Source: a virus
Strand: one strand, 5' to 3'
Length of the DNA stretch: 57,620 nucleotides
IMG/VR virus record: IMGVR_UViG_3300031951_000180
Location: 1-57,620 of that record
The position numbers were made by a program, and so were the translations under genes. The notes beneath the pieces were generated by a model. It made no database searches. It was given only the letters and a program-made list of their open reading frames with translations, and was not told the origin of the DNA. This document shows positions 11,096 to 56,085 of this stretch, in pieces; within the stretch, counting starts at the first letter, position 1; the number at the start of each line of letters is the position of its first letter.

Positions 11096-11679
11096 GCGTC
11101 GATGGCCCTCATGTGGTCGTTGACGTCGCGGCAGAGGATCGCGAGGCCGCGGTGCGTCCGCTGCCCCGGCCGCGGCAGGCAGTCGATGGCGACGCGGTAG
11201 CCGACCTTCTGGAAGAGGTGCATGAACCAGCACGGGCCTTCGCAGCCGGGATCGCGGTTCGTCACGTCGTGGAGGATGATGGCCCGCGGGCCGACCTCGT
11301 AGCAGATGTCCGATTCGATGTCGGCGCAGGCCATGCTGTGATCGCCGTCCAAAATCACGACGCTCTCGGCCGTCAAATACTTCGCCAGCAGCTCGGCGCT
11401 CGTGCCTTCGCAGAGCGACACCCGCTTCGGCGGTGCCTCGGCCACCATCGCCTTCAGGCTGGGCTGATGCACGGGGTCGATCAGCACGACGTGAGCGTCG
11501 ATCTCGTCGGCCGCGGCGAGCACCTCGGCCGTCGAGACGCCAAAGCAGCAGCCGACTTCGACGACTTCGCTGATGCCCTTGCACTGCCGCAGGAACTTCC
11601 CGATCGCCACTGCGTGCCGCCGATCCATCGACATCTGGTGCGTCTCAAAGAACGAGGCGTGGCGGCGGTAGTCGGTCAT
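11080..11679 (-). CDS. Class I SAM-dependent methyltransferase (199 aa)
   Basis: ATG 11679 overlaps the upstream stop by ATGA. Motif I is ISEVVEVGCCFGVSTAEVL, followed by HVVLIDPVHQPSLKAMV, and SVVILDGDHSMACADIESDICYEVGPRAIILHDV, typical of the Methyltransf_24 family that often modifies sugars or small metabolites. The linked glycosyltransferases support methylation of a glycan. Confidence 0.8.
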   Translation of the reverse strand: MTDYRRHASFFETHQMSMDRRHAVAIGKFLRQCKGISEVVEVGCCFGVSTAEVLAAADEIDAHVVLIDPVHQPSLKAMVAEAPPKRVSLCEGTSAELLAKYLTAESVVILDGDHSMACADIESDICYEVGPRAIILHDVTNRDPGCEGPCWFMHLFQKVGYRVAIDCLPRPGQRTHRGLAILCRDVNDHMRAIDACASA

Positions 11680-12330: not shown

Positions 12331-12546
12331 TTACTTGCTCGGCCGCAGGCCGAAGAGAACCCAGCACAAACCCACCAGCGAGCACGCCTCGCCGAAGGAC
12401 AATTCGCTCACAGTGAACGCCGACGCCACCGAGCCACGCCAGAAATACTGGGCGGCCGCGGCACTGACGAGAAACAGGACGACGGCGCCAGCGAGGCCCA
12501 GAACCGTCGCGGTCAGGACAGCGCCGATGGTGTCGGAGTCGTTCAC
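12331..12546 (-). CDS. Small two-segment membrane protein (71 aa)
   Basis: GTG start at 12546 overlaps the upstream stop (GTGA). There are two hydrophobic stretches: IGAVLTATVLGLAGAVVLFLV and a second near FGEACSLVGLCWVLFGL. The size and topology resemble a class II holin, but it is coupled to the Tat-signal gene rather than to a recognised lysin. Confidence 0.65.
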   Translation of the reverse strand: MNDSDTIGAVLTATVLGLAGAVVLFLVSAAAAQYFWRGSVASAFTVSELSFGEACSLVGLCWVLFGLRPSK

Positions 12547-13025
12547 AGATTCACCCCCATCCATTCGACGAGAATCTCGTACCGGCCAGGCGTCGGCACC
12601 GACATCAAACGCCACTCGCCGTCGGCCCCGAGATGGTCGAGGTCGGTGTAGTCGGCCATGCAGCTTACTTCGATGCTGCGCGGCTTCGCGTTTTCGACGA
12701 TCTTCGCGACCTGCCGATCCAGATCGGACTTCTCGAAGTCCTTGCCGGCGTAGGCGTAGCGGACGCTCATCATCGGGATGTCGCTGACGTGCCAATACTG
12801 ATCCATCGACACCACGCGGCACTGCTTGAGCAGGTCGATTGCCTCGTCTACGGCAGACGGGACAGGTGGCTTCTTCTTGCGGCGTTTAGGCGTCTTAATC
12901 GCCGCAGCCGGCGGCGGCAGCGTCAGCGCCGGCTTCGGAGAGGTGGCGACGGAGGCGGATGCGCCGACAGCCGAAAGGCCGGCTGCGGCTGCGAACAAGC
13001 TCTGGAGAAATCCTCGTCGTTGCAT
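12543..13025 (-). CDS. Protein with twin-arginine (Tat) signal (160 aa)
   Basis: The N-terminus MQRRGFLQSLFAAAAGLSAVGASA has the RRxFL twin-arginine core, a hydrophobic region and a small-residue cleavage region, so export through the Tat pathway is expected. A basic linker (IKTPKRRKKKPPVPS) is followed by a soluble domain with SVRYAYAGKDF, SIEVSCMADYTDLDHLG and GRYEILVEWMGVNL. No family recognised. The same genome encodes a TatA-like protein at 17500-17688. Confidence 0.75.
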   Translation of the reverse strand: MQRRGFLQSLFAAAAGLSAVGASASVATSPKPALTLPPPAAAIKTPKRRKKKPPVPSAVDEAIDLLKQCRVVSMDQYWHVSDIPMMSVRYAYAGKDFEKSDLDRQVAKIVENAKPRSIEVSCMADYTDLDHLGADGEWRLMSVPTPGRYEILVEWMGVNL

Positions 13026-13032
13026 GGCGGTA

Positions 13033-13061
13033 GTTATCCGTTTCTGTAGGCTCAAGGTCAA
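13033..13061 (-). promoter_or_regulatory. Promoter of the Tat-signal gene
   Basis: On the minus strand: TTGACC (13056-13061), 17-bp spacer, GATAAC (13033-13038). The predicted +1 falls within 1-2 nt of ATG 13025, and there is no SD, so the transcript may be leaderless. Confidence 0.6.
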
Positions 13062-13071
13062 GACTAATCGG

Positions 13072-13293
13072 CTAGAGATCGTCGCCCTGGAGGAGCCGCC
13101 GCTCGCAGACTCTGGTGAACACCTCAAGCGAGTCCTTCAGGTGGCTGGCGGCCACGACGATCTCAGATTTCTTCTGGAGCTGCATCTCGGCGATGAACTC
13201 ATCGAGCGTCTCGCCGGTCGCGTTGCAGAAGTGCCTGAATGCGGCCACGCGGGCCGACACGACCGCGGGGTCTGGAGTCACTGCCTCTCCCAT
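13072..13293 (-). CDS. Small helical protein (73 aa)
   Basis: Start uncertain: ATG 13293, or GTG 13302. Both lie inside the end of the GNAT gene. The product is helical and charged (VVSARVAAFRHFCNATGETLDEFIAEMQLQKKSEIVVAASHLKDSLEVF). No family recognised. Confidence 0.6.
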   Translation of the reverse strand: MGEAVTPDPAVVSARVAAFRHFCNATGETLDEFIAEMQLQKKSEIVVAASHLKDSLEVFTRVCERRLLQGDDL

Positions 13294-13718
13294 CTCACGC
13301 ACTTTCTTTTCTTGAATAAGGTCGGATAGAACCCGGCCCGTCGGGCGACGAGCAGCATGTGCGGGTGGAAGACGGCGACCGAGTCGCCATAGCCGGCGAA
13401 CAGTGCCGAATACAGCCCCGAGGCGGCGAAGGCGGCGATGCCGCGGCGGCGGTAATTCTTGTGAACGAACGCCTCCAGCGTGTCCCACCGATTGGCAAAG
13501 TCCTCGACCCACTTCTCCGTCCTGGCCCAGCCGATGATCTCGCCTTGATCCTCGACCAGGGCGATGTAGCCGTCGGCCTCCGTCGGCTCGGATGAGTCAA
13601 AGAGCCAGGAGTCCAGCTTCCGCTGGAAGTCGCTGCCTGGCTTCGTCAGATGGTCGCGGACGTATTCGGCGGCGCCGGAGTCAAGGAAGTCGGTGGCGAA
13701 TTGGATGGTGCAGTTCAT
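13278..13718 (-). CDS. GNAT-type acetyltransferase (146 aa)
   Basis: Contains a GNAT core: YIALVEDQGEIIGWARTEKW, then LEAFVHKNYRRRGIAAFAASGLYSALF, where YRRRGIA matches the acetyl-CoA-binding R/QxxGxA loop. The C-terminal VARRAGFYPTLF resembles the usual final strand. It presumably transfers an acetyl group from acetyl-CoA to an unknown amine. Neighbouring modification genes suggest a modifying role. ATGA overlap with the upstream GIY-YIG gene. Confidence 0.75.
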   Translation of the reverse strand: MNCTIQFATDFLDSGAAEYVRDHLTKPGSDFQRKLDSWLFDSSEPTEADGYIALVEDQGEIIGWARTEKWVEDFANRWDTLEAFVHKNYRRRGIAAFAASGLYSALFAGYGDSVAVFHPHMLLVARRAGFYPTLFKKRKCVRWERQ

Positions 13719-14266
13719 GTTAAAGCAGGCTCCTTGGCAGCGATTTTGGGTGTAAGCTTTCTTACAGGCGGAATGCTGACTGGAGGAAGTTTTTCCAAAA
13801 TCCTCGCAACCTCCTCCTTTGGGCTTGGGAACTGCTCAAGCAGAGCTTTCACCTCGGCGACGGCGGCGTCTTGAAGGCTTTTGTCCCTAGAGTCCCACCC
13901 ACGGCACGCACGCTCCCTGTCAACGCATCGCTTAACAAGCTCGGCGTACTCGTTATCAAAGGTGAAGAACTTGCACCCAATGAACGTGACCCCATAAACA
14001 GCAAGCATGGCTATGGCCTGCTCTGCGGTGCATGAAAACCACTCGCCGTGACTGCGGACCTTGCGCATTTGAAAATGCAGTTCGCTCTCAAGCGATGCCG
14101 CGGTGCTCGGCGGCAGTTTTCCGAGCGCAACGATCGGATCAATCCTTGACGGGCAGCCGCACTGAATCTGTCGGATTCGTGACTGGACATTATTTGATCG
14201 GCCGACCTTCACAAAGCCAGCCGCGTATAGCAAGTAGACAAACTGAGTCGCGACTGGATAGCTCAT
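13715..14266 (-). CDS. GIY-YIG-like (MUG113/T5orf172) nuclease-domain protein (183 aa)
   Basis: The N-terminal 80 residues show the derived GIY-YIG pattern FVYLLYAAGFVKVGRSNNVQSRIRQIQCGCP, then LESELHFQMRKVRSHGEWFSC, typical of MUG113/T5orf172 proteins. The C-terminal 90 residues are helical and proline-rich with no known domain. It may cleave DNA or bind branched structures; function of the family in phages is poorly known. Confidence 0.75.
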   Translation of the reverse strand: MSYPVATQFVYLLYAAGFVKVGRSNNVQSRIRQIQCGCPSRIDPIVALGKLPPSTAASLESELHFQMRKVRSHGEWFSCTAEQAIAMLAVYGVTFIGCKFFTFDNEYAELVKRCVDRERACRGWDSRDKSLQDAAVAEVKALLEQFPSPKEEVARILEKLPPVSIPPVRKLTPKIAAKEPALT

Positions 14267-15021
14267 GCCGTAGCCTCCAGTTGTCGCTTCGCATCAATCG
14301 CTTGCTCAACCCGCCTCGCGGCGATGTAGACGTACTCTGGGTTGAGATCAATTCCGATCGCGCTTCGCCCCAGGCCGGCGGCAACGGCAGGGACGGTGCC
14401 GGAGCCGGCGAACGGGTCGAGCACCGTGTCGCCGTGGTTGCTCGAGACGCGGATGATCCGCTCGACAAGCTCCTCTGGCAGTTGCGTCGGCACGCCCTTC
14501 ACTCGCTCGCGGAATGTGCCGCAGACGCGATTGACCTGCCACACGTCGCCCATGATCTTGCCGGCAGGGTTTGCCCGCTTGTCGCCGTACTTCTCCTGGC
14601 GAGACGACGGCACCGTCACGGCGTCGGCGTTGAACGTGAAATTCTTCGCGCCCTTCACAGCGTAGTAGATGGGTCTGGAGCACCGGCCGAATTTCTTGTG
14701 GCAGTAGACGCCGAACGTCTCGTGCCATGTGATGCGGTTTCGCATCGTCATGCCGGCGTTCTGCATCGCGATGTCGATGAAGGCGCCGTATTCCTGACCG
14801 CTGATGATCCACATGGAGCCTGTTGACTTGAGCGCCCGGTAGCACCCGCCGATCCACCGCTGGCACCAGAGGTCATAGTCGGGCCGGCGGTCGGCCTTCG
14901 CCCCAGAGCCGTAGTCGATGCCGATGTTGTACGGTGGATCGGTGACGACGAGATCGACGCTGTGCTTGTCAAGCGTTTGCAGACCTTCGATGCAGTCGCC
15001 GGTGATGATGCAGTGGCTCAC
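14263..15021 (-). CDS. N6-adenine/N4-cytosine DNA methyltransferase (252 aa)
   Basis: GTG start at 15021 overlaps the upstream stop (GTGA). Motif IV TDPPYN (residues 27-32) comes first and motif I DPFAGSGT near residue 205, the beta-class order. It transfers methyl from SAM to exocyclic A or C amino groups. No cognate endonuclease is nearby, so protection of phage DNA is more likely than a restriction system. There is an ATGA overlap with the GIY-YIG gene. Confidence 0.9.
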   Translation of the reverse strand: MSHCIITGDCIEGLQTLDKHSVDLVVTDPPYNIGIDYGSGAKADRRPDYDLWCQRWIGGCYRALKSTGSMWIISGQEYGAFIDIAMQNAGMTMRNRITWHETFGVYCHKKFGRCSRPIYYAVKGAKNFTFNADAVTVPSSRQEKYGDKRANPAGKIMGDVWQVNRVCGTFRERVKGVPTQLPEELVERIIRVSSNHGDTVLDPFAGSGTVPAVAAGLGRSAIGIDLNPEYVYIAARRVEQAIDAKRQLEATA

Positions 15022-15227
15022 TTCGCCCTCCCCCAGCCAATCGAATTCGCCGCGCTCTTCGTCTCCGGGTGATCGCCGAGGCCGACGCGGTCGAGCAGCG
15101 TCACGAGCATGGCAATGTGATACCTGTAGCCGGACGCCTGCCTCTTCGACGAATTGAGCTTCCGCCGAAGCCTCGCGTTGCCACGAACCTGCCCACGCAA
15201 TTCGTCGAGATAGGTCTTCGTCCTCAT
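15018..15227 (-). CDS. Small basic protein (69 aa)
   Basis: ATG 15227 is chosen because a longer frame (to 15287) would run through the tRNA-like element. Basic N-terminal half (LRGQVRGNARLRRKLNSSKRQASGYRYH), then a helix (IAMLVTLLDRVGLG). The stop overlaps the DNA methylase start. No family recognised. Confidence 0.6.
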   Translation of the reverse strand: MRTKTYLDELRGQVRGNARLRRKLNSSKRQASGYRYHIAMLVTLLDRVGLGDHPETKSAANSIGWGRAK

Positions 15228-15232
15228 CAAAA

Positions 15233-15324
15233 CGCCCCGAGCGGGAGTCGAACCCGCGTTTCGGCTATTAATGCCGCGTTCTACCAATGCACGGTGGCTG
15301 CCGCCGTGTCCGAACTATCGGTGC
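15233..15324 (-). tRNA. tRNA-like element with hairpin inserted in the D-loop
   Basis: Read on the minus strand: acceptor GCACCGA/TCGGGGC (one mismatch), TA, D-stem GTTC/GAAC (perfect), anticodon stem CGGC/GCCG with 7-nt loop ATTAATA, variable AAAC, T-arm GCGGG-TTCGACT-CCCGC, discriminator G, no encoded CCA. The D-loop is 30 nt instead of about 8; the extra bases contain CACGG...CCGTG, which can pair. The anticodon in this register is TAA, but tRNA-Leu should have a long variable arm, so identity is not assignable. It could be a decayed or unusual tRNA, or a tRNA-derived attachment site. Confidence 0.5.
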
Positions 15325-15329
15325 AATCA

Positions 15330-15527
15330 CTACTGAAAAACCCCTGCCTGCTTCATCATTTCAATCTGCTCAAGGCTGAATGGCTGAATGCCGCCGTCCG
15401 TCGGCATGTGCGGCTTGACGTACTTCCTGAATGCGTATTCGATGCCAACGTCCAGCTTGACGGCGATGATCGCCGCAGTGACGTAGTAGTCCAGCAACGA
15501 CTTTGATGACTTTTTCCTTGCAACCAC
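15330..15527 (-). CDS. Small hypothetical protein (65 aa)
   Basis: GTG start at 15527 with AGGAGG 7 nt upstream. Basic N-terminus (VARKKSSKSLLDYY) and helical body ending FSLEQIEMMKQAGVFQ. No family recognised. It lies directly upstream of the tRNA-like element on the same strand. Confidence 0.65.
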   Translation of the reverse strand: MVARKKSSKSLLDYYVTAAIIAVKLDVGIEYAFRKYVKPHMPTDGGIQPFSLEQIEMMKQAGVFQ

Positions 15528-15538
15528 TTCCAGACCTC

Positions 15539-15997
15539 CTATCTGAGCTTCAAAAGACGTGAGCCAAGCTCCTCCATCGGCCGCAGCGCCTCGCGCCGCA
15601 TGAACCTTGAGTCGATGCCGTGGCCGAGGTCGCGGACTTCGGCAGCCGCAAGCTGCTTGCCCCAGACCCAGCCAACCAGCTCGCCCTGATTCCCGTCCGC
15701 ATACGCCAGGACGTAGATGTCGGCGGCCACCGGCTTGTCGAGCCTGTGAATCAGATTCCTCCCAGGCTCAGTCGTCTTGACGTCCACCGTGTAGAGCAGA
15801 GGAATGACGAAGTCGATGCCGCCGTCGCCGTTCTTGCGGTCAAACGCGAAGTCGGGACAGACGCCGGAGAACTTGCCGAACTCGACCTCGCCGACCATGC
15901 CGAGATCGTCGCAATCGCTGCGGATCGCGGCGTGCTTCGGATGCCGGTCGGCGTGCGACTCGGTTCGCTTCGCGGCGAGGTATGAGAGGATGGTCAT
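15539..15997 (-). CDS. PD-(D/E)XK nuclease-like protein (152 aa)
   Basis: ATG 15997 overlaps the upstream stop (ATGA). Residues in the middle follow the PD-(D/E)XK plan: SGVCPDFAFDRKNGDGGIDFVIPLLYTVDVKTTEPG, with Asp in GGID and D-x-K in VDVKTT, then IYVLAYADGNQGELVGWVWGKQL as later core strands. Likely a DNA or RNA nuclease; family below this level not recognised. Confidence 0.6.
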   Translation of the reverse strand: MTILSYLAAKRTESHADRHPKHAAIRSDCDDLGMVGEVEFGKFSGVCPDFAFDRKNGDGGIDFVIPLLYTVDVKTTEPGRNLIHRLDKPVAADIYVLAYADGNQGELVGWVWGKQLAAAEVRDLGHGIDSRFMRREALRPMEELGSRLLKLR

Positions 15998-16650
15998 GGC
16001 TTGATAGCGATCCGCCCCGTGTAGTCGATCTCGTCGAATCGCAGGCTGCCGCCGAAATACTCGTCCACGGCCTTCTTGGCGCCACGCCAATGACCGTAGT
16101 CGTCGATGATCAAGACGCCGCCTGAGACGAGCCTCGGATAGAGATGCTCAAGCTCGTGCTTCGTGGATGCGTACCAGTCGGTGTCCAGCCGTAGCACGGC
16201 GATCGACTCCGGCGCCTCGGCCGGCACGGTGTCCTCCACCATGCCGGCGACGAGCCGGCAGTGCGGATACCCCGTCGATGCCATGTTCCGCTCGACCTCC
16301 TCGGCCGGGCAGGCCGACCAGACGTCGCCGGTCGCCTTGTCCTGGGACGCAAGCAGGCCGGCGGCGGCGCTGCCGGCGAGGTCGATGTCCTCGGCCCCCG
16401 GCGGCGGCATCCCGTCGAACGTGTCGAACAGGTGAATCATGCGGCTCTCGCCCGCCTCAGCCAGCACCATTGCCGCAGCCATCATGCTGCCGCCACGCCA
16501 GACGCCGCATTCGACGATGTCGCCGATGACGCCTAAGTCGCAGATTCGACGAGTCGCCGAGATCAAGGCCAGAAGCCGCTCGCGGCTCGTCTTCGTGTAC
16601 GGCGAGCACGCGGCGATGATCTGGTTGTCGGTTTTTGCGGTGGTGGTCAT
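15994..16650 (-). CDS. TylF/macrocin-type O-methyltransferase (218 aa)
   Basis: Matches the TylF family: GDIVECGVWRGGSMMAAAMVL (SAM loop), MIHLFDTFDGMPPPG, VEDTVPAEAPESIAVLRLDTDWYASTKHELEHLYPRLVSGGVLIIDDYGHWRGAKKAVDEYF with the metal-binding Asp cluster. TylF enzymes methylate sugar hydroxyls, so it probably completes the glycan-modifying set with the glycosyltransferases at 9601-11095. Overlaps both neighbours by 4 bp. Confidence 0.9.
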   Translation of the reverse strand: MTTTAKTDNQIIAACSPYTKTSRERLLALISATRRICDLGVIGDIVECGVWRGGSMMAAAMVLAEAGESRMIHLFDTFDGMPPPGAEDIDLAGSAAAGLLASQDKATGDVWSACPAEEVERNMASTGYPHCRLVAGMVEDTVPAEAPESIAVLRLDTDWYASTKHELEHLYPRLVSGGVLIIDDYGHWRGAKKAVDEYFGGSLRFDEIDYTGRIAIKP

Positions 16651-16844
16651 TTGCCGGCCCTCGCCTCTTCTCGTTCATTGGCGAGAGCCTGCTCCTCGAG
16701 CCGTCGCGTCAGGTCGCGGATGACCGCAGCGATGCCGGCCCAGTTCCTGTTCGTCATGCTGTCGGCCTGGCTGAACCTCACCAAGAAGTCGAGGTAGAGC
16801 AGAGCGCTGGGGACGTCGGAGACTGGGTGCGGGTCGTGGATCAT
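16647..16844 (-). CDS. Small helical protein (65 aa)
   Basis: Flanked by ATGA overlaps on both sides. Helical, with a charged C-terminus (LTRRLEEQALANEREEARAG) and no membrane segment or recognised motif. Confidence 0.7.
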   Translation of the reverse strand: MIHDPHPVSDVPSALLYLDFLVRFSQADSMTNRNWAGIAAVIRDLTRRLEEQALANEREEARAGK

Positions 16845-16948
16845 TCGTCACCCCGCGTCATGTACGGAATCAACGTGGCATACGTCACCGCCCCTGCCAA
16901 GACGAGGACGGTGGCGACGTTGAACCAGACGTGCAGAGCGGCTTCCAT
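16841..16948 (-). CDS. 35-aa single-pass membrane peptide
   Basis: A very small gene: ATG 16948 preceded by GGAGG, and stop TGA (16841-16843) overlapping the next start by ATGA. It encodes MEAALHVWFNVATVLVLAG and a short tail ending MTRGDE, with one membrane segment. The overlap and SD make it convincing despite its length. The role is unknown. Confidence 0.7.
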   Translation of the reverse strand: MEAALHVWFNVATVLVLAGAVTYATLIPYMTRGDE

Positions 16949-16950
16949 GC

Positions 16951-17154
16951 CTATCCTCCGAAAAGGCTCCAGAATGACTTTTGCTTCTGCTGACGCAGGA
17001 ACTCGACCTCTTGTTCAAGATTCGCGATCCGCGAACGCAGGCTGTCGAGGGCGACGTGGAACTCGCTGAAGGCGACGTCTACGGCGATGTCCGAAGTGGC
17101 CGGCACCGGCGGAGGAAACGGAACCGACTTCTTCGCTGGCTTCTTCTTGCTCAT
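16951..17154 (-). CDS. Small coiled-coil protein (67 aa)
   Basis: Start ATG 17154; a longer frame is a shadow. Basic N-terminus SKKKPAKKSVPFPPPVP, then heptads (FSEFHVALDSLRSRIANLEQEVEFLRQQKQK) that form a coiled coil, ending FWSLFGG. It resembles small phage structural or lysis-accessory coiled-coil proteins, but no family is assigned. Confidence 0.7.
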   Translation of the reverse strand: MSKKKPAKKSVPFPPPVPATSDIAVDVAFSEFHVALDSLRSRIANLEQEVEFLRQQKQKSFWSLFGG

Positions 17155-17164
17155 GTGGTTGCCC

Positions 17165-17482
17165 TCACTCGTACCGAACGACGGCGACCCAGCCGCGACG
17201 CAGCGGACACCAGGCCGTGCCGATCTCACGCACGCGGCGCTGGCCCCAGTAGCAGGCCCGCCGGCAGGCGGCGTCGGGGCTGACCGTCGAGAAACCCAGC
17301 CCCTCGTAGCCGCCGCCACGGCGACCGCAGTGGACGAACGTGTTTGTCGCCGCGAGGTGGTTGGCGTGATCCTGCGCCGAGACGACGCCGGCGGTGCGGC
17401 GGCCATTCACGACCACGGTCGTGTCGGCAGCGGCGAAGGCGGCGAAAGAGGCGAGGAACAGGGAAAGGACGATGGAACGCAT
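17165..17482 (-). CDS. Secreted cysteine-containing protein (105 aa)
   Basis: Residues 1-19 (RSIVLSLFLASFAAFAAA) form a Sec-type signal peptide with AxA cleavage. The mature part has four cysteines (VHC, AACRRAC, AWC) and TTVVVNGRRTAGVV, with AQDHANHLAATNTFVHCG. Likely periplasmic or secreted with disulphides. No family recognised. It lies downstream of tatA in the same direction. Confidence 0.7.
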   Translation of the reverse strand: MRSIVLSLFLASFAAFAAADTTVVVNGRRTAGVVSAQDHANHLAATNTFVHCGRRGGGYEGLGFSTVSPDAACRRACYWGQRRVREIGTAWCPLRRGWVAVVRYE

Positions 17483-17499
17483 GATGCTTCTCCTAGGGG

Positions 17500-17688
17500 T
17501 TAGGACTGAACCTTCGAATCAATGGCTCGCTCGATCTCGCGGCATTCGGCGTCTACTTCCAGAAATCCGCGCTTGAACTCGACGATCGACTGGCCGACGC
17601 TGCGGGCCACCTTCGGCAGACGCCCGCCAAAGAGCATCACGGCGATGCTGCCGATCACACACATTTCGATGGTGCCTATTCCGAACAT
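17500..17688 (-). CDS. tatA: TatA/Hcf106-family protein (62 aa)
   Basis: A TatA-like pore component of the twin-arginine translocase. The sequence has the short N-terminal membrane helix with Glu8 (FGIGTIEMCVIGSIAVMLFGG), the FG hinge at Phe20-Gly21, the LP of RLPKVARSVGQSIVEFKRGF at Leu24-Pro25 and the amphipathic helix. It is shorter than many bacterial TatA proteins and lacks the long acidic tail. AAGGAG precedes ATG 17688, which lies 13 bp inside csrA, so translation is coupled. A phage protein with a Tat signal is encoded at 12543-13025. Confidence 0.85.
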   Translation of the reverse strand: MFGIGTIEMCVIGSIAVMLFGGRLPKVARSVGQSIVEFKRGFLEVDAECREIERAIDSKVQS

Positions 17689-17885
17689 TCGACTGCTCCT
17701 TCAGGGGAATGAATCTTGGCCTCCGACAGCCGCATCACCAGCTCGTCGCGGGTCACCTTGACGTGCGAAGGTGCCTTGATCACCAACTTCACCGTCTTGC
17801 CGACGACGGAATCGACGATGATTTCGATGCGAGGCCGCTCAAGAATGAGCTTTTGGCCTGGGCGACGAGTCAGAACGAGTGCCAT
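17676..17885 (-). CDS. csrA: CsrA-family RNA-binding regulator (69 aa)
   Basis: Carbon storage regulator homologue. ALVLTRRPGQKLIL matches the N-terminal strand and L-T-R-x-x-G motif, and VKLVIKAPSHVKVTRDEL matches the beta4-beta5 region with the RNA-contacting Arg46 (equivalent to Arg44). CsrA dimers bind GGA in hairpin loops near ribosome binding sites and repress or stabilise mRNAs. This phage has many GGA-rich leaders on its left arm. Has its own promoter; overlaps tatA by 13 bp. Confidence 0.93.
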   Translation of the reverse strand: MALVLTRRPGQKLILERPRIEIIVDSVVGKTVKLVIKAPSHVKVTRDELVMRLSEAKIHSPEGAVECSE

Positions 17886-17943: not shown

Positions 17944-18424
17944 GCCATGTTCGGACGGATTCTCTGACGGCCTGCTCCTTGTGGTGCTCGGAAACCCACT
18001 TCAGGTACTCAATCGCCCCGGGTTGCGAAGCGGCCTCAGACACTGTCATGCCGGGGTATCTGCCTGCGGCGAACACAAACTCGCCAGATGGCTTCTTTTC
18101 CTCCTCTGCTGGACGCTCCTCTCTCGCCGCCACCCACTGGCCTGTTCCACAAAAGCAGCACTCAATTTTCCACGCCTTCTTCTTTTTCCCTGATTCGTCG
18201 ATCTCGGCCCACCCGCGCTCAATGACATCGTGTGCCTCGCCGCCGCAGCTTTCGTCAGCGCAGGCGATGTCATCGAGCCGTCCAATGATCGGGGCGACGT
18301 CTCCCGCAGCGCCGGGCGGCCGCAGGCCGGCTTCTGCCTCGACGGCGACCGACGCAGGCGCCGGCCTCGCCCTCTTCTTTTTCTTTCGCGATTCGTCGGC
18401 TCCGAGGTCAAAAAGCGTGCTCAT
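17918..18424 (-). CDS. DUF3820-like protein with Cys-pair region (168 aa)
   Basis: ATG 18424 overlaps the helicase stop (ATGA). An N-terminal lysine-rich linker (SRKKKKRARPAPA), a Cys region (CADESCGG, then CCFCGTGQW) likely binding zinc, then a C-terminal domain GEFVFAAGRYPGMTVSEAASQPGAIEYLKWVSEHH. The last part resembles the DUF3820/ExoX C-terminal domain (GKxxGxxxxEVxxxDPxYLxWL), which is linked to exonucleases. Coupling to the helicase suggests a DNA-processing partner. Confidence 0.65.
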   Translation of the reverse strand: MSTLFDLGADESRKKKKRARPAPASVAVEAEAGLRPPGAAGDVAPIIGRLDDIACADESCGGEAHDVIERGWAEIDESGKKKKAWKIECCFCGTGQWVAAREERPAEEEKKPSGEFVFAAGRYPGMTVSEAASQPGAIEYLKWVSEHHKEQAVRESVRTWLDLNRPDA

Positions 18425-20067
18425 ATCGGCAACCTCATCTTGTAGTCTGCCCCAGTTTCCGTAGCCACAATCAGCTTTCTCCTGGCTCTCGTGACGCCGA
18501 CGTATTCGATCCGCCGCTCCTCGTCGTGCTGATCCGAGTCGATGCCTTGGGCCTCGTGAATCCGTCGGCTCACGGTCGTGGATAGCACGACGTTGTCGGA
18601 CTCCATCCCCTTCGCGGCGTGGATCGTTCCCACCCTGATCGCCGGCTTCGTCGCAAGTTCTGGCCCGTATTTGATCGCGGCGTTTCGCCACCGCTCGCCG
18701 CCGTGAAACAGGTCGCCCCACCCGCCTTTTCGCAGCTTGTCCGCGAACTCCGGCTTCATCCCGGCCCCCTCCAAATCGGACGGAAGCACGACCTCCCATC
18801 GCCGCAGCGTGTCGTCGCGCCCCCAGGCTGCCTTCGTTCCCTTGACCATGTTCCCCATCGCCGGCAATAGATCGACGGCCGCCGCGAAATCTTCGGGAGT
18901 AGCATGTCTGCCGTTTTCAAGCTCCCACAAGGCGTTCACGGCCCGCAGGAACTTCGTATTGTCCTTGGCCTTCAGCTTTGCGAACGGCAGCCTCTTTTTT
19001 GCGAGCACTGCCTCCCACATCTCGACGATGTAGTTGCACCGAGCGATCACGAGCGTCTGCTCGGTGGCAGACAAGCCTGCGGCCACCGTTTCGGCGTATC
19101 CGCCGCGGACAACTTCACCAGCGTGATCGGCCGGCGCGATCCCCCGATCCCAGTATCCGCTCCGCATCCGCTTCAGGCAGGCTTCGCCAAGTTCGTGGAT
19201 CGGAGCAGGGCATCGCCAGGTCTTCGGCATCACCCGCTCCTTGTCCACCTGCCAGCTCATAAAGTGCCGTGAATCGCTCCCTCCGAAGCCGAAGATGGAC
19301 TGCATGGGATCGCCGGCGAGGTACACCCACTGCACGTTATCGCCGCTGGCAAGGCGTCGGCAGCAGCGGTCAACGAGTGCCGAGGCGTCCTGCTGCTCGT
19401 CCATGATCCACGCCTTGACGTTGGGCGGCAGCTCGCCCTCTGGGTCGGTTTCCTCGAATCCCTCTGGAGAGAACCTGACGCCAGAAAACCTCGCCAACAA
19501 GTCGGTGAAGTCGCAGCGGCACTCCAGCCGCTTCGCGGCCTCGTACTTGTCGATGTATTGCTTGCACACCGCGTACGATGGCACGTCTTCGCCAAGCCTG
19601 GCTGCACGCCGGATCGTGGACTCCAGCGGCTCGAGGCGGCTCCGGCACTGCTCCCAGGCGTTCAAGGCCGCGGCAGCCGACTTCTCGCCGGCAAACCGGC
19701 TGTACCCAGAATCGTCGTCGATGATCGTCCTGACGCTAACGCCGAGGGCGTCGGCGATCCACGAGGCCGAAGCCTTGCTGTCATCCAGAAGCTCGCCTCG
19801 CTTGATGCCGAGCTGCCGGTGGGCAATGGCGTGAACCGTCTTGAACCACCCATCCTTCGCCAGAACTTCACCCGGCACGTTCCAGGCCGAGCTGACGCGA
19901 TCGACGGCCTCGGCGCGGGCCGCCCTCGTGAAGCTGGTGAATCCGATGGAAAACGGGCTTCCGCCGAGGGCGGATTTGGCCGCTTCCATGATCCGAACAA
20001 GCTCGGTTGTCTTTCCCGTGCCTGCCCCGCCTACCAATCTTGCCTTCTTTAACGCTGCCATGACCAT
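18421..20067 (-). CDS. UvrD/Rep-like superfamily 1 DNA helicase (548 aa)
   Basis: ATP-dependent 3'-5' type helicase. Motif I is LVGGAGTGKTT (residues 12-21), motif II WIMDEQQDAS, motif III YLAGDPMQSIFGFGGSD, motif IV TWRCP, motif V VGTIHAAKGMESDNVVL and motif VI EYVGVTRARRKLIVA. Motif II is DEQQD, a known variant of DExQD. Likely unwinds DNA in replication or recombination with the primase-polymerase upstream. Start taken as the first of two nearby ATGs. Confidence 0.9.
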   Translation of the reverse strand: MVMAALKKARLVGGAGTGKTTELVRIMEAAKSALGGSPFSIGFTSFTRAARAEAVDRVSSAWNVPGEVLAKDGWFKTVHAIAHRQLGIKRGELLDDSKASASWIADALGVSVRTIIDDDSGYSRFAGEKSAAAALNAWEQCRSRLEPLESTIRRAARLGEDVPSYAVCKQYIDKYEAAKRLECRCDFTDLLARFSGVRFSPEGFEETDPEGELPPNVKAWIMDEQQDASALVDRCCRRLASGDNVQWVYLAGDPMQSIFGFGGSDSRHFMSWQVDKERVMPKTWRCPAPIHELGEACLKRMRSGYWDRGIAPADHAGEVVRGGYAETVAAGLSATEQTLVIARCNYIVEMWEAVLAKKRLPFAKLKAKDNTKFLRAVNALWELENGRHATPEDFAAAVDLLPAMGNMVKGTKAAWGRDDTLRRWEVVLPSDLEGAGMKPEFADKLRKGGWGDLFHGGERWRNAAIKYGPELATKPAIRVGTIHAAKGMESDNVVLSTTVSRRIHEAQGIDSDQHDEERRIEYVGVTRARRKLIVATETGADYKMRLPI

Positions 20068-22086: not shown

Positions 22087-22869
22087 CTACTCGTCGCCGA
22101 GGTCGTCGGCGGCGACGGTGGCGCCGCTCGGCGGCGCCTGGAACATCGCCGTGAGGGGCTTGTGATAGACCCTCTCAGCCATCTCACCCTGCTCCTCGCT
22201 GATCAGGCCGACGAGACGCGGCACGATCTGGGAGTAGGGCTGACCGCCGGCGTTCTTGACCTTGACGAGCTTCAGGCCGATCACGCACTCGTACATGAAG
22301 CTGGGCAACCGCTTGCGGAACGGCAGCCAGTTCGCGAGCGAGCCGGCCCCGACGGTCACGAGGAGCGGCCACGTTTCGCCGTCACGCAGGATGGCGAGCA
22401 CGCGGGACTCCTTGACCTTCCGGCTCCGGCCGCCACCCTTGCCGCTCCCCCAGCCGAACTCAGGCCCGGTGGAGAGCGCCGCCCAGTCATAGCGGCGATC
22501 GCCGATACGGTAGCGTTCCAGAGCTGGTGCGGAGCAATCCCCCAGATCATCAGACACGCGGTAGCCGACGAGGAGGTCGTGCGACACGATCACGGGCCGC
22601 ATCTCGCTCGGGTCATCCTTGGGCCAAAGGACGCCGCGGCGGCCCTCGGCGACGAGGATGCCGACGATCTCCTCGGTCGTCTCGACGTTCCCCTGGTTGT
22701 CGATCGACCAGACCGTGCCGCCGCCCGCTGGCGTCGGAACACGAATCAGGTCTTGCTCCCGCATCGGCTCACCCTCGAGGTTCGCCGCGATCACCCTGGC
22801 CTGCCGACTGGTCGGCGAGAGGGCCGGGAAATCAATCGTCTTCACGGTCGTCGAAATCGCAGTGCTCAT
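22087..22869 (-). CDS. Hypothetical protein of the replication module (260 aa)
   Basis: ATG 22869 is used since the preceding residues are an arginine-rich shadow. The sequence has an N-terminal linker, IVSHDLLVGYRVSDDLGDCSAPALERY, a glycine/basic loop (GWGSGKGGGRSRKVKESR) and LANWLPFRKRLPSFMYECVIGLKLVKVKNAGGQPYSQIVPRLVG. No family recognised. Its position between primase and helicase suggests a DNA-binding or replication-accessory role. Confidence 0.75.
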   Translation of the reverse strand: MSTAISTTVKTIDFPALSPTSRQARVIAANLEGEPMREQDLIRVPTPAGGGTVWSIDNQGNVETTEEIVGILVAEGRRGVLWPKDDPSEMRPVIVSHDLLVGYRVSDDLGDCSAPALERYRIGDRRYDWAALSTGPEFGWGSGKGGGRSRKVKESRVLAILRDGETWPLLVTVGAGSLANWLPFRKRLPSFMYECVIGLKLVKVKNAGGQPYSQIVPRLVGLISEEQGEMAERVYHKPLTAMFQAPPSGATVAADDLGDE

Positions 22870-22925
22870 GGTCTTTCTCCTAGAGCGTCCTTCTGAACCA
22901 GCCGGCCGCGACGTGCGGCAGGCAA

Positions 22926-23375
22926 TCAACCAACCTTCAAGTGCCGGAGAACCGGCCGAACGAACTCGCTGACGATGCCGGCGAACGGCGTGCCGTCAGC
23001 CCAAGGCGCACGGGCGTCCTTGCCCGCTGCCTTCGACAACTCCTTGAGCAGGCTCTTCAGCCGAGTCGTGTTCACACCGACGAGCTGTGCTTCCATGCCG
23101 GCCTTTCGTGCCGCGGCGAGAATCGCGTCCTGCATTTCTCCCGTAGCGGAAACCGAGTGCTCCCACTCAATCCGCCAACTCCTTCCGGCGACTCGAACTC
23201 CGTCGAGCCTCCCCGCCGTCATCTCCTCGACGGCGACTTCCGCGAGCGCCTCGCGACGCTTTTTCAGTTCCTTCACCGCCAGCTCGGCCGCGTCGATTTC
23301 GCGGTCGATCTGCGTGATCCGTTCAAGCGCTTCCGAGAGCGCGTTGTTGTGGCGAGTATCCTCTGACAACTGCAT
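22926..23375 (-). CDS. Coiled-coil protein of the replication module (149 aa)
   Basis: Residues 10-50 form a coiled coil (ALERITQIDREIDAAELAVKELKKRREALAEVAVEEM). A small beta segment (GVRVAGRSWRIEWEHSV) and a second helical region follow. The layout resembles Gp157-type phage accessory proteins, but I cannot assign it. It overlaps the upstream helicase gene by 53 bp. Confidence 0.7.
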   Translation of the reverse strand: MQLSEDTRHNNALSEALERITQIDREIDAAELAVKELKKRREALAEVAVEEMTAGRLDGVRVAGRSWRIEWEHSVSATGEMQDAILAAARKAGMEAQLVGVNTTRLKSLLKELSKAAGKDARAPWADGTPFAGIVSEFVRPVLRHLKVG

Positions 23376-39402: not shown

Positions 39403-39407
39403 GGTGC

Positions 39408-39776: not shown

Positions 39777-39785
39777 TGCATCTCC

Positions 39786-50174: not shown

Positions 50175-51518
50175 TCACGAGGCCGCCGACTTGAGGGCGA
50201 CCACCGGGCCGACCTCGCTCGTCGAGCCGAGAGAGTGATGGTTGATGTCGAACCGCATGGTTCCCTGGAGGAGAACCTGATCAGTCGTGGCGTAGACCTG
50301 ATCGAACAGCCGCACCGAGAAGTCCCGGCGACGAGCGTAGATCGAGGACAGGCCGAGGTTGCCGAACAGCACCTTCACCCGATTGGCGTCGGCGCCGAGG
50401 GTGCTGTTCATCACATGCACCATCCGCACCGGATAGCCGAGGAAGGTTTCGCCAGCCGCGGAACCAAGCTCGGCCACGCTGCCACCAGCGGCGTACTTCA
50501 GACGAGCGATGCTCGCTGCGTAGCCGGCGGGGCTGACGTACCAGGCCGCACCGCTGCGGGCGTACATCGGCAGCTTGCCCATCGCACCGAGGAAGTCCTC
50601 GATGTCGAGAGTCTCAAAGCCGGTGTTGCCGGGGGCCGCGGAGTGAACCGAAGCCGTGTGGCTGCCGTTGTCGATCTTCGACACGATGCCGCGGATGCCC
50701 CCCACGCTCCCGCTTCCGTCACCAAGCCAGCCACACAGGTCTACCGTGTAGGCCAGGCTGGTCGAGAACTCCTGGGCACAGGCATCTGCCAGCGAAATCA
50801 GGGCGTCTTCGACGACCTCGCTCGACATCCGGCAGGCCACGGCGAGCTTCTTAGCCGTCAGGCTCACGTTGCCGTAGGTCGGCTCGCTCTCGGTGATGGC
50901 CGAGCCTTCGCCGATGAAGTAGGCCGACGTGCCGGTGAGCCGCTTCGGGATCACCATCGTGTCGCGGGTCATCGTCACCGTCTCGACACCGCTGGCAGCG
51001 AACGTGCCATAGGTTTCGACGAGACGAATCACGCGATTGGCGAACTCCTCGGGTACGAGGGCACCGCCGGAGGCGTTGCTGCCCTCGCTGAGAGCGCGGG
51101 CCTCGACGCCGTGATCACGGCACCACCGGAGATCGTCCGAGTTCTTGAACACGTTGCCGCGAATCCAGCGGCCCATCTTGTATGCCTGCTCGACGGCCTC
51201 GGGGCCGTCGTTGAAGGCGCGGAGGGTCGTGTGATGCGGGTAGATCGCCCGAATCTCGGTCTTCCGCTCCTCCGCAGCAGGAGCCGCGGCGGGGGCCGGC
51301 GCCGGGGCGGCCTTCTCGACCACCGCACGGAGTTCAGCCTCCTTCGCAGCGAGCTTGCCCTCGAACTCCAGATCGGACTTGACCTTGTCGGCCTCGTCGG
51401 AGAGCTTCCGCAGCTCGGCGGTCTGATCCTCCGACCGCTCGGCCACATCGGCCAGTTCGTTCATCCGAGCGGCCAGAGCCGCAGCACGATCCTGAAGACG
51501 CTTGAGGTTGCTCGCCAT
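50175..51518 (-). CDS. HK97-type major capsid protein (447 aa)
   Basis: ATG 51518 chosen. Residues 1-75 form the coiled-coil delta domain (ASNLKRLQDRAAALAARMNELADVAERSEDQTAELRKLSDEADKVKSDLEFEGKLAAKEAEL), then an Ala/Pro linker (APAPAPAAAPAAEE), then the HK97 core: GGALVPEEFANRVIRLVETYGTFAASGVETVTM, SSEVVEDALISLADACAQEF, GIRGIVSK, TLDIEDFLGAMGKLP, VRMVHVMNSTLGADANRVKVLFGNLG, QVLLQGTMRFDINHHSLGS. The delta domain is expected to be removed by the protease upstream. Confidence 0.95.
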   Translation of the reverse strand: MASNLKRLQDRAAALAARMNELADVAERSEDQTAELRKLSDEADKVKSDLEFEGKLAAKEAELRAVVEKAAPAPAPAAAPAAEERKTEIRAIYPHHTTLRAFNDGPEAVEQAYKMGRWIRGNVFKNSDDLRWCRDHGVEARALSEGSNASGGALVPEEFANRVIRLVETYGTFAASGVETVTMTRDTMVIPKRLTGTSAYFIGEGSAITESEPTYGNVSLTAKKLAVACRMSSEVVEDALISLADACAQEFSTSLAYTVDLCGWLGDGSGSVGGIRGIVSKIDNGSHTASVHSAAPGNTGFETLDIEDFLGAMGKLPMYARSGAAWYVSPAGYAASIARLKYAAGGSVAELGSAAGETFLGYPVRMVHVMNSTLGADANRVKVLFGNLGLSSIYARRRDFSVRLFDQVYATTDQVLLQGTMRFDINHHSLGSTSEVGPVVALKSAAS

Positions 51519-51673
51519 GTTCGGCCTGCTCCTAACTGAGCCGGCCAGGCGGGCATGACAGATGCGCGACGGCCGGCGGGTGATTGCTTCCCGCAAGCGC
51601 GCCGCGCCTTGAATCCTCAAGGCACTCGCACTGCTCTCGCGACATCCATCGCGAGCGTTGTATCTACTTGTAG
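51519..51673 (-). promoter_or_regulatory. Structured leader of the capsid gene
   Basis: About 155 nt between the promoter and capsid ATG with no gene. Stable hairpins CTCGCGA/TCGCGAG (51636-51655) and CCTTGA/TCAAGG (51607-51622), and further GC-rich pairing near 51565-51600. AGGAGC lies close to ATG 51518. Could set mRNA stability or capsid output. Confidence 0.5.
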
Positions 51674-51701: not shown

Positions 51702-53000
51702 CGGAGTCGAAAGGATCGCCGCCTTCAGCGCCGCCGCCTTCCCGATGTAGTCGGTGGTATCGACGACCACTTCGGCTGCACGAGCCGACTCGGCCTCAAG
51801 CTGCTTGACCTTCCTCGCCGCCCAGTTCTTCGCCGGTGTGCCGCCCCACAAGAGCCACGCCACGAAACCCGGCTTCTCTTCGCCCGGCGTATCCCAGCCA
51901 GGCGACTTGCTCGCCGACTCGTGCCGCGAGAACCACGCATTCATCTCGCGCACCCAATCGTTGTTCATCTCCTCGCGGCGGGCGAGGCGGTTCGCGCGGG
52001 CCACCGTCTCCGGCTTCAGCCCGTCGCCGCTCTTGCCTTCTTCGTGGAGCCGGAGGCCACGCTTTGCCGCCGCCGCCATGCCGGCCGTCGGCTTCAGGCT
52101 CACGGCGCGTTCGTCGTCTTCTTCGACTTCGGAGACATCGGCGTGGGCCGACAGCTCCGACATCCGCTTGGCGACGAAGTAGTCACTCTCCTCCCACATT
52201 CCGTCATCCGACTCCCAGAGGCGGATCAGGACGGCCGGATCGTCAGGCGTCGCCTCCATCGGCTCCTCGGAATACTCGCCCAACTGCCCCTCGGCCATGA
52301 CGTGCTCGACGCGGCCGACGCCGCCGTCCCACGCCACGAAGTCGCCGGGGGCGTGCATCACAGCCGCGGCCCGCGTCTCACCCGCGGCTTCCACCGCTGC
52401 GTTTTCGCCGGTTTCGGGCTGCGGAACAGCCCCCGCAGAATCTTCGACCACAGGGATATCCGCTCGCTGCTCATTCGCCATCTCCAGGGCACGCTTGCTG
52501 ACGTAGGTTTCGGTTGCCAAATAGGCCGGGGTGTCCACGGGGCCGGCGTCGCCGAGGAACGAAAACCGCTTGATGCGGCGGATCATCCGGCCGTTCACGT
52601 CCCGCGTCCACGACTCGTCCTTCGGATTCGAGCGGAAGGCGAAGCTCGATCCGCGGACATCGCCTCTCTGGATCAGCTCAACCACGTCGGCCGCCGACCG
52701 GGGCGGGTCGATCTCGTACCGCAGGCCACGCTCGTCCACCGCCAGCCGCATGGTGCCGCTGGTGGTGCGGCCGATCACCCGCTCATGGTTGTATTTGCCG
52801 AAGACGTCGGGGTTCGACCGCATGACATCGTCGAACGCGCCGCGTTCCACGATCTCGACGAAGCCTCCCAAGTCCTGGGATTCCGATTCAAAGACGGCGG
52901 CGTAGCCCCGAATGACCGTGCGGCCATTCTGGTCTTCCTTGACTTCCAGCCCCGGCACCTCGCCGATCAGGCGTCGCTCAAGTTCGCTCGATCCGTCCAT
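51675..53000 (-). CDS. HK97-type prohead protease with C-terminal extension (441 aa)
   Basis: Peptidase S78: RGYAAVFESESQDLGGFVEIVERGAFDDVMRSNPDVFGKYNHERVIGRT with catalytic His72 and RGSSFAFR with Ser118/119. After about residue 180 there is an SH3-like part (PGDFVAWDGGVGRVEHVMAEGQ...EESDYFVAKRMSEL) and a C-terminal helical part (VARANRLARREEMNNDWVREMNAWFSRHES...GFVAWLLWGGTPAKNWAARKV). The extension may be a scaffold or a self-removed region. Start ATG 53000. Confidence 0.88.
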   Translation of the reverse strand: MDGSSELERRLIGEVPGLEVKEDQNGRTVIRGYAAVFESESQDLGGFVEIVERGAFDDVMRSNPDVFGKYNHERVIGRTTSGTMRLAVDERGLRYEIDPPRSAADVVELIQRGDVRGSSFAFRSNPKDESWTRDVNGRMIRRIKRFSFLGDAGPVDTPAYLATETYVSKRALEMANEQRADIPVVEDSAGAVPQPETGENAAVEAAGETRAAAVMHAPGDFVAWDGGVGRVEHVMAEGQLGEYSEEPMEATPDDPAVLIRLWESDDGMWEESDYFVAKRMSELSAHADVSEVEEDDERAVSLKPTAGMAAAAKRGLRLHEEGKSGDGLKPETVARANRLARREEMNNDWVREMNAWFSRHESASKSPGWDTPGEEKPGFVAWLLWGGTPAKNWAARKVKQLEAESARAAEVVVDTTDYIGKAAALKAAILSTPLHGVRHAR

Positions 53001-54559
53001 GATCCAGTGACCTCCTCGTAAGACTTGCCACTGCGGTGGCAATCAAGAAGCAAATCCCGCGACTTCTCCATCCAGCCGGATACGAATCCGTCGATATCGC
53101 GGCCAGTAGCCTCTGCGGCGTCGCACAACTCCGTTCGCATCCGCTGCTCGTGCGTCTCGAGCCAGGCCGCCAACTTGGCCGGCTTGTTGCGTCGCTCCAG
53201 AATCCCGTCGGCTTCGATGGCGGCGAGTCGCCGAAGCGTCGAAGTGAAGACGACTTCGGCGGCTCGTGACTCGCCGGCAGCGGCAGGGTCGGTCGGCACC
53301 GGAGCCTCGGGGGCCGGCTCGGCCGCAGGCTGCTCCGACACCTTCGTCGGCGCCGCCGTCGGGTTCCCCGGCGTGTAGTTCTCAAGCAGTTGCATATTGA
53401 CCTGCACGAACCGCTTGTCGCCGCCTTCGACGGGGTTGTAGCCCAGTTGCTGACGCACCTCGTTGGTGCTGAAGACGCCGAGGTTCCACATCTCCCGCAG
53501 GAAACTGGCCCTCGCGGCGAAGTCGCCGACGAGTAGCGCAGAGACGTCGAACTGGGCGAAATACCGCTTGTCATCGACGACCAAGTCGCGGCGGCAGGCG
53601 GCCTCGAGTCGGCGCAAATCCGGCACCAGCGTGAACGTGACGAAGTCGATGGCCTGCTGCTCGACCGACGAATACGAAGACTTCGACAAGTCGCCGATCA
53701 TGTAGGCCGGCACCCGAAAGGCGCGGGCCACCTCCTCGATCTGATGGCGTCGCGTTTCCAGAAGACGATTCGTGTCATTATTGACGGTCATCTCCTTGAG
53801 ATGAGCGCCGTGGGGGAGGACGGCCGTTTTATGGGAGTTCTCTGGGCCGCGGTGCATATCCTCCCATTGCTGCCGGAGTCGCTGGAGCGTCTCGGGCTTC
53901 ATGGGCTGATCGGTTTCAATGACCGTGCCGGCACGCGCGCCGTTGCCGAAGAACGCACCGGAGTGCAGTTCGGCGGCTCTCGCCAGGGCGATCGCGTCCC
54001 GCATCAAGACCGTCGGGATGTAGCAGTTCACGCCGTCGGGCGAGAGGCCGCGATAGGCGAAGACCTGATCCTGCCGGTAATACGTCGGCGTCGGGCTGTT
54101 CGGCTCAGAGTAGGCGTACCGCAGCCGGCCGTTCTTCAGCCGCTCGGGCTTCATCCGCGACGGGTGCAGCGGGATCAACTGATCCACGGCACCTCGCCGG
54201 CCCGGCTTGATCCAGGCGTAGCCGACGCCCCAGAGCATCCGCCACGACTGCATCAGCTCCTTGAACTCAAACGCCGTCATCCAGTCGTTCGGCTCGTGGG
54301 CGAGAACGTCATAGAGCGGGTGCTCCTCGGCAATCCGCTTGCCGTCGCTCGTCCGCTCGTAGAGCTGGAGGGGCAGGCTGGCGACGGATTCGCTGACGAC
54401 CTTGACGGCCGCCAGGATCGCACTGCACTGAAGACTCGCCTCTGGCGTGACGTAGACGCCCGCGGTCGTCTTCTTCTGCTCGATCATCTCCTCGAACACG
54501 CGGGAGATGCCGCTGCGCATTTCGACGATATCTTCGACTGCTTGCGTTTCTTCTGGCAT
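52967..54559 (-). CDS. HK97-family portal protein (530 aa)
   Basis: Start ATG 54559 overlaps the terminase stop (TGATG). AVKVVSESVASLPLQLYERTSDGKR, HPLYDVLAHEPNDWMTAFEFKELMQSWRMLWGVGYAWI, and SVEQQAIDFVTFTLVPDLRRLEAACRRDL are typical of phage_portal (HK97) proteins. The C-terminal 120 residues after a Pro/Ala-rich linker are helical with EVVFTSTLRRLAAIE. It overlaps the protease by 34 bp. Confidence 0.93.
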   Translation of the reverse strand: MPEETQAVEDIVEMRSGISRVFEEMIEQKKTTAGVYVTPEASLQCSAILAAVKVVSESVASLPLQLYERTSDGKRIAEEHPLYDVLAHEPNDWMTAFEFKELMQSWRMLWGVGYAWIKPGRRGAVDQLIPLHPSRMKPERLKNGRLRYAYSEPNSPTPTYYRQDQVFAYRGLSPDGVNCYIPTVLMRDAIALARAAELHSGAFFGNGARAGTVIETDQPMKPETLQRLRQQWEDMHRGPENSHKTAVLPHGAHLKEMTVNNDTNRLLETRRHQIEEVARAFRVPAYMIGDLSKSSYSSVEQQAIDFVTFTLVPDLRRLEAACRRDLVVDDKRYFAQFDVSALLVGDFAARASFLREMWNLGVFSTNEVRQQLGYNPVEGGDKRFVQVNMQLLENYTPGNPTAAPTKVSEQPAAEPAPEAPVPTDPAAAGESRAAEVVFTSTLRRLAAIEADGILERRNKPAKLAAWLETHEQRMRTELCDAAEATGRDIDGFVSGWMEKSRDLLLDCHRSGKSYEEVTGSWTDRANLSDA

Positions 54560-56085
54560 CAGATCAGGAGAATGTTGGGTTCGTCGTCTTGGCCTTGGGC
54601 CTCCGCGGAGCACACGCCCAGCGGCATTATCAAAGCGACAGCGGCGTCAATTCGTCCGGTGGAGTGCGAGTGGCTTTTCGTGGGCTTGATGTTGCCCGCG
54701 TCGTCCTGCTTCACCTGCATGTTGCTGATATGGAGGGCCAGCGGCGGATTGCCCGCATGGCGGATTTTCTGGCCTAAAACCAGGGTTTCGAGCAGCTTCG
54801 TCGGCGCCGACAAGCTGGCGTAGCCCTGTCCATACGGCTTGACATCGACCCCCTCATTGACGAGTTGCGTCGTCAAATGGGTGGCATTCCATCGGTCAAT
54901 GGCAACAGACTTGACCCAGTTCTTCTCGCAAAACGAGAGAACGTAGTCACGAACCGCGTCATAATCCGTCACGTTGCCTTCTGTTAGTGTAACAAAACCA
55001 TCCTTGGCCCATTGGCGATACGGGGCTTCGTCGCGGTCGGCGCTCTCCTCGGGGATGAAGAGATGGGCCATCACGTCGAACGAGCCATCCTCGTCGGGCC
55101 AGATGGCGCAGAACGCCGTCGTGTCGCTCGTGCTCGACAAGTCGAGGCCGCAGTAGCACGGGCGGCCCTCAGTCGGCCGCAGCGGCGAGTTGCACGCTTC
55201 CCACTGGCCTGTGCGGAAGAACTTATTCGCGCCGTTGCTGCACCACATATTCAAATACAAAGTCCGAAATTTGACCTCCTCGGCCACGCTCTCGCGGGCG
55301 AGCATCGCCTCTCGCTCCATGAACTCCTTGCGGACGGTGATGCCGTAGTTCGGATTAGCCTTCTTCCACGTCGATTCGGCGAAGATGTCGTCATCCTGAT
55401 CGGCCGCGAAGATGCACGGCAGAAACGTCGGATCGTTGATGATTCCGTCGCGAACCTTGAGCGCCCGCTGCCACTCCTCGTAGCAGGGGCCGACGCGATC
55501 CATGCCCGCCGTCGTTACATAGATGACGAGCGGCTCGTCCCGCATGCCCATGCCGCTCTCTAATACATCGACGAGATCGCGATTCGGCTGGACGTGATAT
55601 TCGTCTACAATCACCACGCTCGGATTGAAGCCGTGTTTACCTTTGTGCTCGCTGGATAGGAATTGAATTGTGCTATTCTTACCGGGGATAACAATCGACC
55701 CCTTGTATATCTTCGACCGACGCTGCAAGCCTGGGCAGGATTCGATGAACCGCGAAGCCGCCGTGAACAGGAGGCTCGCCTGCTTGCGGTCGCCGGCCGC
55801 GATCAGAATCTGGCCCCCGTCGTCGCCGAAGAAGCCCTCGTAGGCGCCGATTAAGGCGCAAGTCGCGGTCTTTCCGGCCTTCCGGGGGACTGCCAGGAGG
55901 GACCGCTGATACTGCCGGCTGCCATCCGGCCGCTTCGTCTCGTAGAGCCGACGAAGATACTCCTCCTGCCACGGCTGGAGGGTGAAAGGCTCCCCTGCGA
56001 ATCTCCCTTCGCTGTGCCGCAGCCACGAAGCGAACTCACAGATGTCAGGCTTGCTTTCCAAAATACTTGTCGGTTGGGTCGTCAA
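54559..56085 (-). CDS. terL: Terminase large subunit (508 aa)
   Basis: DNA-packaging motor. Walker A-like AVPRKAGKTATC (residues 65-76), Walker B VVIVDEYH (157-164), coupling TTAG, and C-terminal nuclease parts with GLDLSSTSDTTAF and GRIDAAVAL. Belongs to the Terminase_1-like/HK97 group. It overlaps the small subunit gene by 41 bp. The nuclease cuts concatemers at initiation and termination of packaging. Confidence 0.95.
   Translation of the reverse strand: MTTQPTSILESKPDICEFASWLRHSEGRFAGEPFTLQPWQEEYLRRLYETKRPDGSRQYQRSLLAVPRKAGKTATCALIGAYEGFFGDDGGQILIAAGDRKQASLLFTAASRFIESCPGLQRRSKIYKGSIVIPGKNSTIQFLSSEHKGKHGFNPSVVIVDEYHVQPNRDLVDVLESGMGMRDEPLVIYVTTAGMDRVGPCYEEWQRALKVRDGIINDPTFLPCIFAADQDDDIFAESTWKKANPNYGITVRKEFMEREAMLARESVAEEVKFRTLYLNMWCSNGANKFFRTGQWEACNSPLRPTEGRPCYCGLDLSSTSDTTAFCAIWPDEDGSFDVMAHLFIPEESADRDEAPYRQWAKDGFVTLTEGNVTDYDAVRDYVLSFCEKNWVKSVAIDRWNATHLTTQLVNEGVDVKPYGQGYASLSAPTKLLETLVLGQKIRHAGNPPLALHISNMQVKQDDAGNIKPTKSHSHSTGRIDAAVALIMPLGVCSAEAQGQDDEPNILLI

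Follow-up and report, generated by a model that had tools for sequence, protein, structure and literature searches.

A minimal TatA encoded by tailed phages and its linkage to genes with twin-arginine signals

The presence in one phage genome of a gene for a TatA-like protein and a gene for a protein with a twin-arginine signal raises the question of whether the two act together, and in what way. An initial annotation of this DNA had paired them and proposed either that the phage TatA adapts the host Tat pore for export of the phage protein or that it makes membrane lesions as a holin. The window analyzed here is the whole 57,620-base IMG/VR record IMGVR_UViG_3300031951_000180. The contig is that of a tailed phage, perhaps a temperate one, since it encodes a terminase, a portal, an HK97-type capsid protein, and connector proteins (PHROG family matches) along with tyrosine recombinases/integrases (Table 1). 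Two of the recombinase genes, which differ from each other, lie end to end in opposed orientation (25706-26596 on the + strand and 26593-27405 on the - strand).

Table 1. Features of the window discussed in the text
Feature	Position	Strand	Match or remark
Small protein with 2 TM segments (71 aa, GTG start), 4-base overlap with the S1 end	12331..12546	-	
Tat-signal protein, 160 aa, family S1	12543..13025	-	MQRRGFLQSLFAAAAGLSAVG.. signal; RR invariant in homologues
Small ORF with Sec-type signal, next after tatA	17165..17482	-	homologues in L003, L007
tatA, 62 aa; minimal form, lacking the long C-terminal tail seen in host proteins	17500..17688	-	PF02416
csrA-like regulator, overlaps tatA start	17676..17885	-	PF02599 47.4 bits; phrog_9500
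UvrD/Rep-like helicase (named by sequence features), upstream neighbour block of tatA	18421..20067	-	syntenic in L003-L009
Conserved replication-block protein, tatA-independent phage-group marker (A2)	22087..22929	-	
Major capsid protein, HK97 type	50175..51620	-	phrog_10 E 4e-47
Portal	52967..54613	-	phrog_12 E 4e-102
Terminase large subunit	54559..56085	-	phrog_9 E 1.4e-146

The TatA-like protein was confirmed as the product of a real ORF, scoring 34.9 bits against PF02416 (TatA_B_E; cut-off 21, E 8.8e-9). Solved TatA structures were matched by a profile built from the phage TatA family, and no TatA family was returned among the PHROGs for the window proteins. TatA needs a polar residue before its helix for contact with TatC, along with a helix of about 12 residues, an F-G hinge, and an amphipathic helix followed by acidic residues (PMC9527704). 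In the window protein the acidic residue E8 precedes a helix of 12 residues (9-20) followed by F20-G21, and E8, the helix, and F20 G21 are all invariant in an alignment of 9 phage TatA sequences. An amphipathic helix with an acidic stretch after it can be read from RLPKVARSVGQSIVEFKRGFLEVDAECREIE. Judged by these sequence features, the protein is a true TatA.

Relatives were collected by scans using the window TatA and the family alignment, which recovered nine other distinct IMG/VR contigs with TatA as well as one further IMG/VR fragment identical to the window in both TatA and the 160-aa protein. A scan using the tatA-independent marker (alignment A2) returned 60 loci and added two tatA+ records, G022 and G023, which nearly duplicates it; ten distinct IMG/VR phages besides the window carry TatA. 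The PF02416 cut-off was exceeded in the window, in all nine relatives searched, and also in G022 and G023. Identity between the window TatA and the nine other phage TatAs (A1) was 51-85% (69-85% within the group), the most distant sequence (L010, G058; 51%) coming from a low-GC phage. Contamination was rejected as the source of these genes because many contigs share one arrangement of phage genes with tatA among them. A weak TatA-like match in G025 (12.6 bits) looks spurious on reading.

The nearest cellular relatives found were TatAs of Planctomycetota: of the 24 bacterial contigs in which the TatA alignment detected relatives, 23 belong to this phylum, and identity reached 68% over short stretches. 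The group marker had relatives in 2 of the 392 Planctomycetota genomes searched; in one of the two, the relative lies on a contig of 7.8 Mb beside syntenic helicases and a CsrA-like match. The phage group thus probably infects Planctomycetota, a host link that is probable and not proven since the marker search covered this phylum only. The phage proteins resemble the Planctomycetota branch of cellular TatA (PF02416) in fold signature, F-G hinge, amphipathic helix, and core identity (up to 61-63%), and differ from it in being phage-encoded, in their length of 58-70 aa without the long C-terminal tail of the compared host TatAs, and in having Tat cargo and no TatC beside them. A negatively charged residue before the helix occurs in two-component (TatA and TatC) and plant Tat systems (PMC9527704) and is shared by the phage TatA; unlike the two-component systems, the ten tatA+ relatives searched for TatC (PF00902) encode none.

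Matches to TatA in the GenBank phage collection were only marginal, being confined to unverified Listeria/Staphylococcus 'phage' contigs and MT835995 (weak, E 0.09). Two of these unverified 'Listeria' and 'Staphylococcus phage' contigs (OR846728.1 and OR849886.1) hold a tatA-tatC pair and were rejected as cases of phage TatA; given the TatC also present, the regions look like bacterial tatAC operons or contamination. No report of a phage TatA was found in the literature among open-licence papers, which is weak evidence of absence. TatA is an already known family, and what is new, as far as we have seen, is a phage-borne TatA linked to Tat cargo.

The twin-arginine signal ascribed to the 160-aa protein (family S1) also stood up. 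The ORF is real, and its N-terminus, MQRRGFLQSLFAAAAGLSAVGASASVA, is a classical signal with a twin arginine, F-L, and an A-S-A cleavage-like site, the core being uncharged and moderately hydrophobic. A rule written for Tat signals gave 1 match in the window, compared with a mean of 0.15 in dinucleotide-matched simulated windows. The twin arginines are invariant in 10 S1 homologues, though these are only 18-35% identical to the window protein, and an S1 mature-domain profile retrieved only Tat-signal ORFs from the phage records searched. A small membrane ORF similar to that of the window follows S1, with the ends overlapping, in G022, G024, G025, and G051. An AF2 model of the S1 protein predicts with confidence a small alpha/beta core. 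Fold searches with this model gave no match at E 0.001; the best PDB matches were tail-terminator-like (E about 0.2) and the best BFVD matches were uncharacterised entomopoxvirus proteins (E 0.0045, low TM-scores).

In order to compare records with and without tatA, a single Tat-signal rule was run over 39 whole records (11 tatA+ and 28 tatA- of the same phage group). Two revisions of the rule were prompted by inspection of known cases, and it was applied alike to all records; its first version excluded K/Q at the consensus position and missed the window signal. The final rule, whose tuning drew on tatA+ sequences, detected one or more Tat-signal ORFs in 11/11 tatA+ records versus 8/28 tatA- records, and three of these eight hold only matches that were doubtful when judged by eye. 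Tat-signal ORF density was 4.3 per 100 kb in tatA+ records (23 matches) and 0.76 in tatA- records (11 matches), while the control motifs KK, KR, and RK gave 3, 3, and 5 matches in the same 39 records. One record, G025, had no rule match, yet an S1 protein was found there by profile. Fisher's test gave p 4.5e-5 for the association between tatA and Tat signals, a value that ignores relatedness. When kinship was corrected for, 5 supported independent pairs were available; the Tat signal tracked tatA in 3.1-3.5 of them on average and never went in the opposite direction, and five pairs are too few for such a test to reach 0.05.

The two kinds of gene are also linked in position. In 10/11 tatA+ records tatA directly adjoins a Tat-signal ORF: family S2 lies directly upstream in G022, G051, G052, G055, G057, and G059, family S3 takes this upstream place in G053, G054, and G056, and in G058 the adjoining ORF is an unrelated one on the downstream side. 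The window is the sole exception, with csrA overlapping tatA, the Tat-signal gene 4.5 kb off, and no adjoining S2 or S3. Co-occurrence of the two kinds of gene in relatives, which the initial annotation had offered as a check, was therefore observed. Its interpretation was partly upheld; the tie of TatA to the 160-aa protein in particular is looser than implied, given that S1 also occurs in records without tatA (G003, G024, G025, G034, and G039) and that in relatives the closest tie to tatA is that of S2 or S3, which the window is missing. Since S1 is present in tatA- phages, it does not strictly depend on phage TatA, and the TatA of the host is presumably enough. Across the phage group, relatives without tatA included, csrA-like ORFs lie upstream of the site taken by S2 and tatA; the one in the window belongs to the known phage CsrA-like regulators (phrog_9500) and counts here as a neighbour of tatA.

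The twin arginines are invariant in the 6 S2 proteins, for which the predicted structure was poor (pLDDT 61). The S3 genes (G053 39174-39812, equal to L108:19174-19812; G054 41962-42555; G056 22891-23271) include a stretch that resembles an HK97-type major capsid protein (phrog_617, E 3.5e-6), and comparison with the capsid proteins of the group by hhalign gave a probability of 83% (E 8.6e-6).

In two close phage pairs, S2 and tatA are absent together as one block. Where G055 has approximately 757 bp that cover the greater part of a small gene, S2, and almost the whole of tatA, G001 has approximately 29 bp, and this state is a loss of the S2-tatA block because the last tatA codons are kept there. 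The distal Tat cargo of G055 was also not found in G001. In the second pair, S2 and tatA are missing as a block from G024 relative to G022, and the S1 gene is kept. These observations bear on the possibility that tatA and the Tat-signal genes are passengers without a joint role, picked up from hosts rich in such signals. Such an origin would suit the patchy distribution of tatA, which needs 7 changes on the marker-protein tree (6 of them forced by supported branches), and the finding of S1-like signals on unrelated host proteins as well. It is nevertheless quite unlikely in view of the adjacency of tatA and cargo, their joint absence as one block, and dN/dS values of 0.05-0.39 for tatA in the phage pairs where these could be computed, which point to purifying selection; furthermore, the mature S1 domain was not found in 392 Planctomycetota genomes, in which the profile matched only signal-peptide regions of large ORFs.

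The position of tatA also bears on the proposal that it acts as a holin, making membrane lesions for lysis. TatA and holins of the TpeE/BhlA type both have an amphipathic helix behind a short N-terminal membrane helix, and membranes are weakened by TatA clusters (PMC9527704); moreover, the window ORFs that were scanned included no recognisable holin or endolysin. BhlA/TpeE holins are, however, described as unrelated to TatA in sequence (PMC9527704), and unlike them the phage protein matches TatA by profile. The window tatA lies in the replication/csrA region, after the helicase and csrA, and these together with small ORFs are its neighbours, no recognisable lysis gene adjoining it. The residues linked to TatC contact are conserved, tatA tracks Tat cargo, and it has been lost in very close relatives. 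A lytic function consequently found no support and is very improbable. Of the two ideas first put forward, adaptation of the host Tat pore is the better one, a preference that follows from the co-occurrence and adjacency in relatives.

The economical reading of neighbouring cargo and of the lack of a TatC in the ten relatives is that the phage TatA joins the host TatC and helps to export phage proteins. We consider it probable that Tat capacity for phage cargo is raised or retuned in this manner. The phage would make an extra, minimal TatA, and since no TatC was found in the relatives this TatA would have to use that of the host, docking on it and so entering the host Tat translocase. The capacity gained or altered would serve small phage-encoded twin-arginine proteins, encoded beside tatA in relatives (S2 and S3) or a few kilobases away (S1, as in the window), which may then be exported and work outside the cytoplasm. 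Our best guess for the role of the cargo is a change to the envelope or superinfection exclusion, and such a role would suit a stable tatA accompanied by cargo that varies.

The same components could instead sabotage the host, with the short phage TatA and the signal peptides competing for host TatC and blocking or diverting host Tat export, so that the envelope is weakened or a host protein that would harm the phage is no longer delivered. A phage TatA without the long tail of the compared host proteins and the several Tat signals per phage would agree with this, but the tail is reported to be dispensable for TatA activity (PMC9527704), and the mature domains of S1 and S2 are conserved across phages, which a decoy would not need. 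Sabotage is on balance unlikely.

The reading in which the phage TatA joins host TatC could be taken further. As a tentative extension, which we consider possible but rather doubtful, tatA and interchangeable folded cargo would form a mobile Tat cassette that retunes the host translocase in infection or lysogeny and places phage proteins in the periplasm of the planctomycete, where they might, for example, keep out other phages. In three phages the cargo includes a piece similar to the major capsid protein of the phage itself. A phage with a Tat translocase subunit and its cargo would, if true, be a step beyond using the host exporter unchanged. A natural minimal TatA matched to defined cargo would be informative about the recruitment of TatA to its substrates, and the system would offer a first handle on phage activity in the unusual cell envelope of Planctomycetota.

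Other genes were noted around the Tat genes of the window. A TylF-like methyltransferase (PF05711) is encoded at 15994-16650 and a weak glycosyltransferase match, below the cut-off, falls at 9601-11584; these are possibly genes of surface modification. Proteins with a Sec-type signal, like the one encoded next after tatA in the window, are encoded directly before S1 in L061 (18866-19177), L063 (20205-20561), and L064 (15972-16256), and a conserved C-terminal pattern is shared by these small proteins and their counterpart in the window.
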